Below are positions 627 through 56,580 of a stretch of 64,000 nt of DNA, in pieces (the stretch's first letter is position 1; the number at the start of each line of letters is the position of its first letter). Made by a program: the position numbers and the translations under genes. This stretch comes from Saprospiraceae bacterium. Its GTDB lineage: Bacteria > Bacteroidota > Bacteroidia > Chitinophagales > Saprospiraceae. The notes beneath the pieces were generated by a model. It ran no database searches. It saw only the letters and a program-made list of their open reading frames with translations, and had not been told where the DNA came from. The stretch covers positions 1 to 64,000 of the forward strand of contig JAIXOO010000026.1 of assembly GCA_027486765.1 (NCBI GenBank), in the 5' to 3' direction.

Positions 627-1172
627 ATGGAAGTAATTCAACATTCCCCTACAATTTGGTCCATTGATCATTTTCTTTCCACCGAAGAATGTGCTGCGTT
701 AATCAAAATGAGTGAAGAACTCGGGTATGAGGAAGCAGAAGTGAGTGCCCCTGGAGGTGCCCGAATGATGAAGGGCTTGCGCAACAATTATCGATTGCTT
801 TACCTGAATGAAGTCCTTGCAGATCAATTTTGGCAAAAACTAAAAGATCATTGCCCCGACTTTATTGAGAACAACCAGGCTGTGGGTTTGAATGAACAGT
901 TCCGTTTTTACAAGTACGAATTCGATCAACGCTTCAAGCGCCATATCGATGGCAGATTTCGTCGCAATGACCAAGAGGAGAGCCGCATCACTTTTATGAT
1001 TTACCTCAATGAAGATTTTGAAGGTGGCGAAACAAATTTTGATCAGGTGAAAATCCAGCCTAAAACAGGCAGCGCCTTGTGTTTTATTCACGAACAAAAA
1101 CACGAAGGATGCCCGGTCACTAAAGGGATTAAATATGTGTTGCGTTCAGATGTGATGTATAGAAAAATTTGA
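627..1172 (+). CDS. 2OG-Fe(II) oxygenase (prolyl 4-hydroxylase-like)
   Basis: HxD motif (RHIDGRF), NEDFEGGETNF, and distal His/Arg region HEGCPVTKGIKYVLRSDVMY typical of the P4Hc domain. Confidence 0.85.
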   Translation: MEVIQHSPTIWSIDHFLSTEECAALIKMSEELGYEEAEVSAPGGARMMKGLRNNYRLLYLNEVLADQFWQKLKDHCPDFIENNQAVGLNEQFRFYKYEFDQRFKRHIDGRFRRNDQEESRITFMIYLNEDFEGGETNFDQVKIQPKTGSALCFIHEQKHEGCPVTKGIKYVLRSDVMYRKI

Positions 1173-1304
1173 ATGTGGAAGGTTGTTATGCTTAACCCAT
1201 GGTCTTGCAACACCTCATCACGTCCAAATTTGATCAAACAACGGATGTTAGATCAGGACATGGAAGTTGAAAGGACTATTAATTCTGGTTTTTCACCCAA
1301 CGGA

Positions 1305-1479
1305 AGACCCGCTAGGGGCGCGATATGGGTAGAAAACAACAGCCCCGAAATTTCCCCGAGTCCCGTAGGGACGTAATGTGGGTATCTGGAGGGGTATAAT
1401 ACCCACATTTCGTCCCTACGGGACTCGGGGAAATTTCGGGGCTGTTGTTTTCTACCCATATCGCGCCCCTAGCGGGGCT
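1305..1479. repeat. Long palindromic intergenic element, family A copy 1
   Basis: 75-nt arms 1311-1385 and 1399-1473 match at 74/75 positions around a 13-nt loop; contains GCTAGGGGCG..ATATGGGTAG and GAGTCCCGTAGGGACG words. Confidence 0.95.
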
Positions 1480-1579
1480 TACAGAACGCGACCTACCCCC
1501 CATTTTTTCTGTCTTACCCACTGAAAACTAGTTTTCGATAAGGAATAATGCTCATATCAAACACCTAAAAACCACCACC

Positions 1580-2197
1580 ATGCTTTTCATCTTCATTTTG
1601 CTGATCAGCTACATTTTGGTCACAGGAACCCTGTTCAACCACCTCTTCAAACCCGTTCAACCAGACTTCTCCCACTATTTCAGCCCCAACCAGAAATTTG
1701 TGAGCCAAATGGAAGGGCTGTGTCTGATCATCAAAAAAGTTGAAAACGACTGGGCCTATTGCCGCGCTGAACTAAATGCCTTTGCCCCCGGCCCCCCTGA
1801 ACACATCCACGAACACTTTGATGAAAGTTTCACCGTGGCAAAAGGGACCGCTTCCTTTTTAGTCAATGGCGAAAAAATAATCGTGCAGGCGGGCGAAACC
1901 ATCGTCATCCCCAGAGGAGTACCCCACAAACCTTTTAATGAAACCGCCGAGCTGCTCATCATGGACGATGTTACCAATCAACACCCCTCCATGACCGCCA
2001 GTTTTGCCTATGGATTGGCCAATATTTATTCAGCCATGGATAAAATCGGGAATCCTCGTTCCATCTTAAACCTGCTCGCTTTGGCCGCACAAGGGAATGA
2101 TTTTGATACCTGGGACAGCAAAATTCCACTGGGAGTACAAAAAGCTTTGCGCTGGATTTTGGGGCCAACTGCCCGTTTGTTGGGGTATGAAAAATGA
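1580..2197 (+). CDS. Cupin domain-containing protein with N-terminal hydrophobic segment
   Basis: PGPPEHIHEHFDESFTVAKGTASFLVNGEKIIVQAGETIVIPRGVPHKP cupin motifs. Confidence 0.85.
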   Translation: MLFIFILLISYILVTGTLFNHLFKPVQPDFSHYFSPNQKFVSQMEGLCLIIKKVENDWAYCRAELNAFAPGPPEHIHEHFDESFTVAKGTASFLVNGEKIIVQAGETIVIPRGVPHKPFNETAELLIMDDVTNQHPSMTASFAYGLANIYSAMDKIGNPRSILNLLALAAQGNDFDTWDSKIPLGVQKALRWILGPTARLLGYEK

Positions 2198-4225: not shown

Positions 4226-4242
4226 ATTGAAGGCGCATCTCT

Positions 4243-4327
4243 TCTGAGGTGTATCTATGGTGTCTAGATGGTTTAAATAAAACATGTTCGTTTTTGAACC
4301 ATCTCAGATACCTTAGAAACACCTCAG
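4243..4327. repeat. Hairpin repeat, family B copy 1 (CTGAGGTG.../...CACCTCAG)
   Basis: CTGAGGTGTATCTATGGTGTCTAGATGGTT versus inverted AACCATCTCAGATACCTTAGAAACACCTCAG; lies between convergent genes. Confidence 0.8.
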
Positions 4328-4376
4328 GAGTAATACATCTATGATACTTTGATAGTTAGAACTTGCGACTTGGCGC

Positions 4377-15978: not shown

Positions 15979-15993
15979 GGTTGAAAAACGTTA

Positions 15994-16125
15994 GGGTTCC
16001 AGGGGTAGGAGGTTCCAAAGTTCCTGGGCTCCAGAGTTCCAAGGTTCCAGAGTTCCTGGGTTCAACGGTAACTCGATCTGGCACTTCGAACCCAGGAACT
16101 CTGGAACCTTGGAACTTTGGAACCC
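15994..16125. repeat. Inverted repeat of an ~8-nt word (GGTTCCAGAGTTCC)
   Basis: GGTTCCAAAGTTCCTGGGCTCCAGAGTTCCAAGGTTCCAGAGTTCCTGGGTTC versus GAACCCAGGAACTCTGGAACCTTGGAACTTTGGAACCC. Confidence 0.9.
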
Positions 16126-16202
16126 TTTGTCAGTTGTTTCCGTTCCATTCGTCGCCTAATAAATTTAGATTAGACAGAATTTTTTATTTTTCCGATTCAC
16201 AA

Positions 16203-18971
16203 ATGAAGCCAAATATGTCCAGACTTTTACTGTTGTTGTTGTTCTTTTTCCCATTGGTGGTGTTTGCCCAAACACCCGCCAAACGGATGTTGGAGCATGC
16301 CGACATCGCCAAATGGAAAAGCATTGAATCCTCCAAAATATCTGGAGATGGCCGTTGGGTCGGCTACGTGGTCAAACCGCTGGAAGGAGATGGCGAGCTG
16401 CGCCTGTACGATGGGCAAAGCGATAAAACGCTAAATGTGCCCCGGGCCGAAAACCTCAACTTCAGCCAGGACAGCCGGTACCTCGCCTTCATCATCAAGC
16501 CCTTTCGCGACAGCACCATGAACATGCGACGGCGCAAGGTCAAAAGAGACGATCTGCCCAAAGACACCCTCGGCGTTTACGACTTGCGCACGATGAAGCT
16601 GAGCAAATACGCCGGGGTGAAATCCTACCAAATGCCCGAAAAATGGTCGGGTTGGTTGGCTTATTTGCGCGAACCTGCGAAAGCTTTACCGAAAGACACC
16701 TCCAAATTTGTTTGGAAAAAGGAGAACGAAGAAAATGGCAGCCGACTGGTTTTACTCGAATTGAGTGCCAATCAAGAACGGCTGATTGGGTATGTCAAAT
16801 CCTACCAACTGGCACGCGACAAAGCGCGGGTTGCCTGGTATACCACTGGTGGCGACCCCGAGCAAAAGCCTGGTGTATACGTTTTTGATGGTGAAACCCG
16901 TCAAACCAAACACGTACTGGCTCAAAAAGGCAACGTCAAACAACTCACTTTTGACCGCCCCGGTACCCAATTGGCTTTTGTGGCGGATGTGGATACCACC
17001 AAGGCTCGGGTTCGCCCATTTGGTTTGTACCATTGGCAAAGCACGGCAGATAAAGCTCGTTTAGTCCTTGGTAAAGGCGCTAGTTTTTTACCCAAAGATT
17101 GGTTGCCCAGCGACAACGGAAACCTCTCCTTTGCCAAGGACGGCTCTAAGCTCTATTTTGGCATTGCCCCTCCACCCATCTTGATGGATACCATGCTGTT
17201 GGAGGAAGAAATTGTAAACCTTGAAGTCTGGTCTACCTCCGACGAGCGGATTTACCCCATGCAAAAAGTACAGTTAGAGCAGGACCGCCGGCGCTCCTAT
17301 ACCTGCGTCCTACACGTTGCTGATGGCAAACTGGTACAATTGGGCAGCCTGGATGTACCCGAAGTCCGCCTGAGCAATGAAGGTAATGGCAGTCAGGTGC
17401 TGGGTGTTTCCAACAAACCCTACCGCATCCAGATGACCTGGGACGCCGAACCCGTTAACGACATTTACCTGATTGATGTACAAAATGGTAAGAACGAAAA
17501 AATTGCTACGGCTGCACACGGTAATCCGAACCTTTCGCCCATGGGCAAGTACGCCTATTGGTACAGTTTGACCGATAGTGCCTGGATGGCCTGGAACATC
17601 GCTAAAAAGAGCCTGGTCAAATTGAGCAACAACGACAAGGTGAAATTTTACGATGAACTAGCCGATAGCCCGGAAAACCCTAACTCCTACGGTTTTGCAG
17701 GCTGGAGCAGTGAGGACGATTATTTCCTCGCCTACGACCGCTATGACATCTGGATGCTTGACCCCACTGGCCAACTCAAGCCGACCAACCTGACCAATAT
17801 GCGGGCGGAAAAAACGGAAGTACGCTACGTCCGTACCGATCCCGAAGAACGGTCGATTGAAGAGGTAAAACCATTACTGTTGCACCATACCAACGAGCTG
17901 ACCAAAGAAGAAGGTTACATGTGGTACGATATCCACAGCGGCAAAAAACGCCCGCTGCAAAAGGGTGCCTACACCTACTCTTCACAGGTACAAAAGGCCA
18001 AAAACGCCGATCGTTGGATCTTCACCCGTGAAAACTTCCAAACGTTCCCGGACATCGTTTATTCGACCGACCTGCAAAGTGTAAAAACCATCAGCCAGGC
18101 CAACCCGCAGCAAGCAGAGTTCTTCTGGGGTACTTCTGAGTTGACTGAATGGACGGCGATGGATGGCCAAAAGTTACAGGGTATTTTGATCAAACCCGCT
18201 GGTTTTGACCCGAAGAAAAAATACCCCATGATCACCTATTTCTACGAACGCATGACCGATCAGCTGCACCACCATTGGACGCCAGGCTACAACCGCAGCA
18301 TGCTCAACTTTGCTCAATTGGCCAGTCGCGGGTTTTTGGTTTTCATTCCGGATATTCCCTATCGCATTGGTTACCCAGGCGAAAGTGCACAGAATTCGAT
18401 CATCTCTGGTGTGACTGCATTGGTCGATAAGGGCTTCGTGGACAAAGACAATCTGGGTGTGCAGGGCCACAGTTGGGGTGGCTATCAAATTGCATATTTA
18501 GTAACCAAAACGAATATTTTCAAGTGCGCCGAATCGGGAGCACCGGTGGTGAACATGGTGTCAGCCTACGGCGGGATTCGTTGGGAAAGTGGCATGAGCC
18601 GCATGTTCCAATACGAGCACACTCAAAGCCGGATTGGTGGTACCCTCTGGGAAAAACCGCTGCGCTACATGGAAAACTCCCCCATCTTTTTCCTCGACAA
18701 GGTGAGCACTCCACTGCTGATTATGGCCAATGACAAAGATGGAGCAGTTCCCTGGTACCAGGGCATCGAATTTTACATGGGCCTACGCCGCCTGGGTAAA
18801 CCCGCCTGGATGCTGAACTACAACGAGGAAGGCCACGGCCTGGTCAAACTGCAAAACCGCAAGGATTTCCAATTGCGCATGTTGCAGTTTTTTGAGCACT
18901 ACTTGAAAGGTGCGCCGAAGCCGGTGTGGATGGAGAAGGGGGTTGCGGCGATTGAGCGCGGCGTGAAGTAA
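16203..18971 (+). CDS. S9 family prolyl oligopeptidase-like peptidase
   Basis: Start at 16203 gives a signal peptide; GHSWGGYQIAYLVTKT nucleophile, NDKDGAVPWYQGIEFY and GHGLVKLQNR active-site regions. Confidence 0.92.
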   Translation: MKPNMSRLLLLLLFFFPLVVFAQTPAKRMLEHADIAKWKSIESSKISGDGRWVGYVVKPLEGDGELRLYDGQSDKTLNVPRAENLNFSQDSRYLAFIIKPFRDSTMNMRRRKVKRDDLPKDTLGVYDLRTMKLSKYAGVKSYQMPEKWSGWLAYLREPAKALPKDTSKFVWKKENEENGSRLVLLELSANQERLIGYVKSYQLARDKARVAWYTTGGDPEQKPGVYVFDGETRQTKHVLAQKGNVKQLTFDRPGTQLAFVADVDTTKARVRPFGLYHWQSTADKARLVLGKGASFLPKDWLPSDNGNLSFAKDGSKLYFGIAPPPILMDTMLLEEEIVNLEVWSTSDERIYPMQKVQLEQDRRRSYTCVLHVADGKLVQLGSLDVPEVRLSNEGNGSQVLGVSNKPYRIQMTWDAEPVNDIYLIDVQNGKNEKIATAAHGNPNLSPMGKYAYWYSLTDSAWMAWNIAKKSLVKLSNNDKVKFYDELADSPENPNSYGFAGWSSEDDYFLAYDRYDIWMLDPTGQLKPTNLTNMRAEKTEVRYVRTDPEERSIEEVKPLLLHHTNELTKEEGYMWYDIHSGKKRPLQKGAYTYSSQVQKAKNADRWIFTRENFQTFPDIVYSTDLQSVKTISQANPQQAEFFWGTSELTEWTAMDGQKLQGILIKPAGFDPKKKYPMITYFYERMTDQLHHHWTPGYNRSMLNFAQLASRGFLVFIPDIPYRIGYPGESAQNSIISGVTALVDKGFVDKDNLGVQGHSWGGYQIAYLVTKTNIFKCAESGAPVVNMVSAYGGIRWESGMSRMFQYEHTQSRIGGTLWEKPLRYMENSPIFFLDKVSTPLLIMANDKDGAVPWYQGIEFYMGLRRLGKPAWMLNYNEEGHGLVKLQNRKDFQLRMLQFFEHYLKGAPKPVWMEKGVAAIERGVK

Positions 18972-19085
18972 GTGAAAAGTGAATAGTGAAAAGTGAAAAG
19001 CAGATACACCATTTGGATTTCACCGTTTGGTAAATTTTTTTCACTTTTCACTTTTCACTTTTCACTTTTCACTTTTCACTTACTT
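18969..19085. repeat. Opposed GTGAAAA / TTTTCAC heptamer arrays, between convergent genes
   Basis: AGTGAAAAGTGAATAGTGAAAAGTGAAAAG ... TTTTTTCAC(TTTTCAC)n; the right array includes the stop codon of the 19069..20079 CDS. Confidence 0.93.
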
Positions 19086-26910: not shown

Positions 26911-27042
26911 TCTTAGGTGAACCCCTAAGGTGTACTAAGGTGTCTTAGGTGGTGAAAATAAAAAATGCCCTGCGGAGCAGGGCTAATGTTCACCACCTTA
27001 GACACCTTAGACACCTTAGTTCACCTAAGGGGGCACCTAAGA
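26911..27042. repeat. Hairpin repeat, family B copy 3
   Basis: TCTTAGGTGAACCCCTAAGGTGTACTAAGGTGTCTTAGGTGGTGAA versus TTCACCACCTTAGACACCTTAGACACCTTAGTTCACCTAAGGGGGCACCTAAGA, loop GCCCTGCGGAGCAGGGC. Confidence 0.93.
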
Positions 27043-28480: not shown

Positions 28481-28657
28481 GAGCCCCGCTAGGGGCGAAA
28501 TATGGGTAGCATATTGCGAGAAACCCAGGATTTTTCGAGTCCCGTAGGGACGAAATGTGGGTATTGTATCGATTTTGATACCCATATCACGTCCCTACGG
28601 GACTCGGAAAAACGTTGGGCCTGTAATTCTACCCATATCACGCCCCTAGCGGGGCTC
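28481..28657. repeat. Long palindromic intergenic element, family A copy 2
   Basis: GAGCCCCGCTAGGGGCGAAATATGGGTAG...GAGTCCCGTAGGGACGAAATGTGGGTAT and its inverted counterpart ending GCCCCTAGCGGGGCTC. Confidence 0.93.
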
Positions 28658-42273: not shown

Positions 42274-42450
42274 AGCCCCGTTAGGGGCGTAACATGGGTA
42301 GAAAACAAGAGCCCCGATGTTTTCCCGAGTCCCGTAGGGACGTGATGTGGGTATCTGGAGGCGTACAATGCCCACATCACGTCCCTAAAGGGACTTTGGA
42401 AACTCCGAGAATCACCATTTTCTACCCATCTTTCGCCCCTAGCGGGGCTT
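42274..42450. repeat. Long palindromic intergenic element, family A copy 3
   Basis: AGCCCCGTTAGGGGCGTAACATGGGTAGAAAACAAGAGCCCC...GAGTCCCGTAGGGACGTGATGTGGGTAT with degenerate inverted arm. Confidence 0.92.
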
Positions 42451-44011: not shown

Positions 44012-44105
44012 CTAAGGTGACTCTTAAGTGCCTGAGGATTCTTAGGTGGTAAAAAAACATTATTTCACCACCTAAGAATCCTCAGGCACTTAAGGTACAC
44101 CTTAG
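44012..44105. repeat. Hairpin repeat, family B copy 4
   Basis: 39-nt arms CTAAGGTGACTCTTAAGTGCCTGAGGATTCTTAGGTGGT / ACCACCTAAGAATCCTCAGGCACTTAAGGTACACCTTAG, 16-nt A-rich loop. Confidence 0.95.
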
Positions 44106-56407: not shown

Positions 56408-56580
56408 AAAGCGACATTTTTTATCACAAAGAACACCAAGGCAGCACAAAGGACACAAAGTTAGACGTTGACAGGTTCTAATGCTAAGATTATCTGTGAA
56501 ACTTAGGCAGAAGCCTTGTCAAAATCTCGTCCTTGTGTCCTTTGTGCTGCCTTGGTGTTCTTTGTGCCAAAAAAATGTGT
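56408..56580. repeat. Long inverted repeat, family C copy 2
   Basis: Shares ACACCAAGGCAGCACAAAGGACACAAAGTTAGACGTTGACA with the 2525 copy, including loop sequence. Confidence 0.93.

Follow-up and report, generated by a model that had tools for sequence, protein, structure and literature searches.

A composite REP-like palindrome of Saprospiraceae, its likely association with Y1 HUH transposases of the subclass 1.2 type, and a rewritten arm

The long inverted repeat at positions 1304-1480 of the window, i.e. the whole 64,000-nt stretch of a Saprospiraceae bacterium contig (JAIXOO010000026.1) analysed here, is quite probably a non-autonomous composite REP element, a doubled doublet of four units which has been spread by a Y1 HUH transposase of the subclass 1.2 type and survives in this genome as relic copies; in the copy at 1304-1480, one arm has evidently been rewritten from the other. 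This reading is built on the architecture of four units common to the copies, the pairing of these units with transposase genes in related genomes, differences in cassette and presence at orthologous sites and the substitution pattern of the right arm.

The two arms (1304-1385 and 1399-1480) are 82 nt long, 98% complementary and separated by a loop of 13 nt, the residual mismatches being 1307/1477 and 1374/1410. The single-strand folding energy is -166.5 kcal/mol as compared to -62.9 +/- 4.5 for shuffled sequences (z = -22.9), and the near-perfect inverted repeat of the original prediction, placed at 1305-1479, is thus real. Its true span is slightly wider, though, and is accompanied on both sides by a degenerate outer frame, on the left together with a linker (1275-1303, forward strand; cognate to CAGGGTCGATTGGTTCTGTTTTTTCGCGCAACGGG in other copies) and on the right as ACAGAACGCGACCTACC (1481-1500, reverse strand; cognate to CAGAACCAATCGACCCTGCC). 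The two further copies predicted for the window, at 28482-28656 with the order A-B-B'-A' and at 42274-42449, are equally genuine, both keeping the outer and inner words while differing in their spacers; allowing up to three mismatches, the inner word has five matches in the window (0.2 expected by chance) and the outer word seven (0.45 expected). All window copies are intergenic. The copy at 1304-1480 lies downstream of a gene for a 2OG-Fe(II) oxygenase (627-1172, forward strand, Pfam PF13640) and upstream of one for a cupin-domain protein (1580-2197, forward strand, Pfam PF07883); at the orthologous place in the same-genus genome G003 (JAIYAV, Saprospiraceae bacterium E1_MAG_00014), the element and the sequence immediately around it are preserved, while neither gene region (527-1290 and 1508-2216) has a match there.

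Alignment of the copies from this genome and from same-genus genomes resolves the element into four REP-like units in the fixed order A-B-loop-B'-A', about 175 bp in all, rather than one hairpin, an order found at 24 of 32 G003 loci as well as in the window and other own-genome copies. Each unit consists of a 5-bp hairpin with GGGTA 9 nt further on, the sequence after the hairpin being CGnnATRTGGGTA. The stems are GCCCC/GGGGC in A and GTCCC/GGGAC in B, a C-G to T-A difference which preserves pairing, and pairing is complete at all five stem positions in 240 of 290 units. The tails distinguish the units as well, with GGGTAG in 45 of 46 outer units and, T replacing the final G, GGGTAT in 65 of 69 inner units. 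In the copy studied here, outer unit A (1306-1332, forward strand), conserved in all copies, has its stem at 1306-1310/1315-1319 (GACCC/GGGGC, one mismatch), the loop GCTA, a linker of 9 nt and GTAG at 1329-1332; it is followed by a left spacer of type L, AAAACAACAGCCCCGAAATTTCCCC (1333-1357, forward strand), and by inner unit B (1360-1385, forward strand) with the stem GTCCC/GGGAC, the loop GTA and a tail ending in TGGGTAT. Beyond the central 13-nt loop (1386-1398) come the inverted inner unit B' (1399-1424, reverse strand) and the inverted outer unit A' (1452-1478, reverse strand; CTAC at 1452-1455, linker and stem GCCCC/GGGGC). As a lone 5-bp hairpin folds only modestly, it is recurrence and not stability that makes up the evidence for the unit.

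One reason proposed for the high arm identity was selection acting on the long or branched structure as a whole. The other copies do not support this, as most of them carry different, non-complementary spacer types in the two arms, and conservation is thus confined to the small hairpins and their tails. The same observation bears on the explanation that the element is a functional RNA or a control element of transcription, such as a terminator or an mRNA-stabilizing hairpin, selected as one long hairpin. Although the fold is very strong, the element lies between co-directional genes and each arm holds a terminator-like stem, we consider this explanation improbable, as the long hairpin is not conserved between copies with unrelated arm spacers, Rfam has no match in the window, the terminator-like hits owe their T-rich tail to the spacer, which varies between copies, and orthologous sites are empty or occupied by unrelated elements. 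A stable stem directly followed by a T run and conserved between copies, as expected of an intrinsic terminator, was not found.

Across copies the arms are typically only about 70-88% alike, since in most of them the two A-B spacers are of different types, e.g. GAAAACAACRGCCCCGATGTTTTCCC and GTAAATGGTGATTTCCGGAGTTTCCC. In the G003 orthologue of the window copy (L265) the left arm is the same, but the right side carries a normal right-type spacer. Compared with this right arm, all 15 of 15 substitutions in the right arm of the window copy equal the complement of its own left arm and fall into one tract, 1411-1463; the right arm has thus evidently been overwritten recently from the left arm, and the recent arm correction that had been suggested is borne out. 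The converted spacer CCCCGAAATTTCCCC matches the left arm of the same copy and, among the other full copies compared, only the left arm of the orthologue; with the copied sequence absent from the other paralogous copies compared, the source is most likely internal. Ectopic gene conversion from another copy, for which the many paralogous copies could provide donors, has therefore very little probability. That the arm identity is an artefact of assembly, a fold-back consensus, is also very unlikely: palindromes are error-prone in assembly and the genome is a draft of 514 contigs, but the arms are still unlike at 1307/1477 and 1374/1410, the rewritten stretch is limited to 1411-1463 and flanked by right-side sequence kept in G003, and a similarly rewritten copy in G003 (L097) has been changed in the reverse direction, with the right type on both sides and an arm identity of 0.96. 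The overwriting from the own left arm would have occurred in one tract through a replicative template switch, as quasipalindrome correction by template switching is known from E. coli and eukaryotes (PMC7202029, PMC8604942, PMC8794818) and the substitution pattern of the right arm carries its signature.

A Y1 transposase gene bordered by matching termini, which had been proposed as a partner, exists in the same-genus genome G003 and in other genomes, while none was found in the genome of the window. In this draft assembly, in whose 514 contigs repeats can break contigs, none of six Y1_Tnp genes is bordered by an A or B unit; the own-genome copies hence look non-autonomous. Inverted units surround a Y1 HUH transposase gene in G003 and four other genomes. 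In G003, a 153-aa Y1 gene (L134) has several inverted unit copies on either side, and a second gene, 95% identical (L176), is flanked by inverted type-1 units. The subclass 1.2 type genes L103 and L062 show such flanks as well, and so do L145 and L147, though their matches are looser. These proteins hold the HUH motif DHVH and Y...Q..HH, the latter reading YIQEQETHH in L134; among 70 such genes collected from relatives, 67 have Y---Q--HH. The NCBIfam IS200/IS605 model gives a match above cut-off, and the nearest solved structures are the transposases 2xm3, 2xma and 2xo6 (ISDra2 TnpA). By motif, phylum and low copy number, the predicted proteins agree with TnpA subclass 1.2, which is defined by Y---Q--HH and is chiefly known from Cyanobacteria and Bacteroidetes (Quentin et al., 2018; PMC6006769).

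Of the 65 genes (out of the 70) with enough flank, 36 (55%) are enclosed by matching inverted repeats, as compared to 1.2% of mismatched pairs; a clear inverted flanking repeat is absent in 45% of these genes. In a tree of 67 proteins the type of unit clusters strongly with the protein, with 11 changes versus a mean of 21.8 after shuffling (0 of 200 shuffles as low), unit types being set by loose patterns, with L195 possibly misassigned; transposases with type-2 units form one clade with support of 100/99. A search of plasmids gave two distant Bacteroidota records only, of which Bernardetia NZ_CP147018 shows a hairpin GTTGCAGCGCAAC + ACAATATTT followed by GTAG in the upstream flank, in line with a tag on the 3' side. 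The genome of the window also holds a broken gene of the subclass 1.2 type (L174, G000:C295:4582-4794) with hairpins of another family alongside; with 56% identity over its second half it resembled the lost cognate gene, but it was rejected in this role since its flanks hold the different hairpin family GCGGCATAGCCGC...GTCGGTAG. A different REP-associated transposase (L024, G000:C24:4524-4742; NF047646 above cut-off, motifs NHIH and YIHQNP), resembling subclass 2.6, is flanked by inverted CTTGCGTCTTGAAGACGC hairpins, and other subclass 1.2 type genes (L021, L023, L150, L154, L155) have in their flanks hairpin families of their own with 3' GTAG tails.

According to pattern and BLAST searches there are about 10 copies of the element in the genome of the window and about 40 in G003, all same-genus genomes except G002 being drafts of many contigs. 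B-type units, searched as a pattern with up to two mismatches, number 11 in the own genome, 11 in G001 (JAAFHQ), 2 in G002, 79 in G003 and 0 in G004, and a further 56 genomes from the family and order add only 2 matches. Unit number thus tracks the gene, with 79 in G003, which has the cognate transposase, and 0-11 in same-genus genomes without it. In named genomes, exact matches come almost exclusively from Bacteroidota (Saprospiraceae, Cytophagales, Prevotellaceae, Flavobacteriales, Emticicia and Imperialibacter), with one Planctomycetaceae record outside this phylum. Three of about 10 own-genome copies lie within 41 kb in the window (contig C327), more than expected from even spacing. Further repeats in the window are an inverted, high-copy CACCAAGGCAGCACAAAGGACACAA family at 2520-2645, where dozens of dispersed matches exist in G001-G003, and at 56417-56574, the words CTAAGGTG and CACCTTAG that form inverted repeats in at least three places (4241-4330, 26922-27032 and 44012-44105), and the inverted tandem words GGTTCCAAGG and AAGTGAAAAGTG at 15993-16126 and 18966-19085.

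Many copies sit between inverted frame arms, CAGGGTCGATTGGTTCTG...CAGAACCAATCGACCCTG, and one such frame, of a near-constant total length of 234-245 nt, encloses three different cassettes. The type-1 cassette is the four-unit element described above. Type 2 has four hairpins, ACCCCGAAGGGGT + GACATGATTATAG, of which again just the outer pair bears the TAG tail; its unit flanks its own subclass 1.2 type genes in G002, and the transposases L149 and L203 are among those bordered by it. For type 3, CGACGACGCGACG..., no transposase flanked by its units was found. Two of the three window loci have unrelated cassettes or nothing in relatives: at 28482, G003 has the same type-1 cassette and G001 and G002 the unrelated type 2, while the intergenic region at 42274 is occupied by type 3 in G003 and by another repeat in G001, with nothing similar there in G002 and G004. 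Cassettes may have been exchanged in place or inserted independently into a preferred frame. The gaps of G002 and G004 at 42274 come without a precise junction in the alignment from which insertion ends could be read, and, with the elements embedded in a larger shared palindromic frame, neither exact element ends nor a target rule are definable. The shared inverted frame CAGGGTCGATTGGTTCTG... around three cassettes and the total of 234-245 nt would also suit a MITE-type element mobilized by a double-strand (DDE) transposase, whose terminal inverted repeats would then be the frame. We judge this unlikely, as the transposase genes are flanked by the internal units and not by the frame and are of the Y1 HUH type, and as the frame is unrecognizable on one side in several copies.

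Returning to the composite REP element, the transposase would bind the small hairpins in single-stranded DNA, probably of the lagging-strand template, and would cut the outer units at their displaced GTAG tail or close to it, and the composite might then be moved or copied between intergenic sites. The cognate gene would have been lost from the lineage of the window or never been present in it, which would leave the copies here as relics. An evenly balanced proposition is the wider one that TnpA subclass 1.2 represents a second, separately derived REP-associated lineage with a displaced 3' GTAG, which mobilizes fixed four-hairpin composites, with at least three unrelated cassette families of nearly equal length interchangeable in this genus within one conserved palindromic frame, so that orthologous intergenic sites differ in their cassettes by species. 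The findings give an orphan HUH protein class a probable DNA partner whose geometry can be tested, and class 1 (IS200-like) enzymes would be linked to the spread of REPs. Furthermore, a near-perfect long palindrome in such a family can be the mutational product of arm rewriting and not a sign of selection for a long hairpin. For comparable intergenic palindromes in Bacteroidota genomes, the element offers a concrete default explanation.

The position of the tag is the feature by which the element can best be set against known systems. Among the 256 tetramers GTAG ranks first by side asymmetry, being found 6-9 nt 3' of the hairpin at 24 loci versus 9 on the 5' side; the two sides were compared with each other since control positions drawn at random from these repeat-filled flanks are uninformative. 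Within 5-10 nt it occurs at only 28 of 70 loci, and at the canonical position, 0-2 nt from the 5' foot, at 5 of 70; in the window element it sits 9 nt 3' of the stem.

With the REP/BIME/REPIN elements and their TnpA-REP (RAYT) proteins, of the E. coli and GTAG families, the element shares short intergenic palindromes in inverted groups and the GTAG tag (PMC3733652, PMC6006769), as well as the tie of each family to its own low-copy Y1 transposase with inverted flanking units, here outside the own genome, and the presence of several families per genome. In contrast, GTAG lies 0-2 nt 5' of the hairpin foot in those systems but about 9 nt 3' here, where the hairpin has only 5 bp, the spreading unit is a fixed four-unit composite and the protein is class 1-like (subclass 1.2) instead of class 2. 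GTAG repeats have been described from Proteobacteria, Cyanobacteria, Chloroflexi and PVC bacteria, Bacteroidetes not being listed (Di Nocera et al.; PMC3733652). In A. variabilis, GTAG-15 dimers likewise place REP groups inside a longer conserved palindrome, and the target palindrome is not found alone (PMC3733652), but the palindromic frame described here is shared by at least three unrelated cassettes. Hairpins with a nearby tetranucleotide and the match to the NCBIfam model are common ground with IS200/IS605 elements (IS608, ISDra2); here, however, the dispersed element is gene-free, several inverted units lie in the transposase flanks and the gene has not multiplied as a unit, the gene-free elements of about 175 bp in G003 numbering about 40 versus 2 cognate genes, and not a multicopy, near-identical unit with tnpA inside. 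Closest is TnpA subclass 1.2 itself, with the shared Y---Q--HH motif, occurrence in Bacteroidetes, low copy number and proximity to IS200 transposases (PMC6006769). Its members were described as generally devoid of typical terminal secondary structures, and no partner DNA was described (Quentin et al., 2018; PMC6006769), nor was a later paper giving them one found in the open-licence literature, whereas the genes found here are accompanied by specific flanking hairpin repeats which are also dispersed in the genome.
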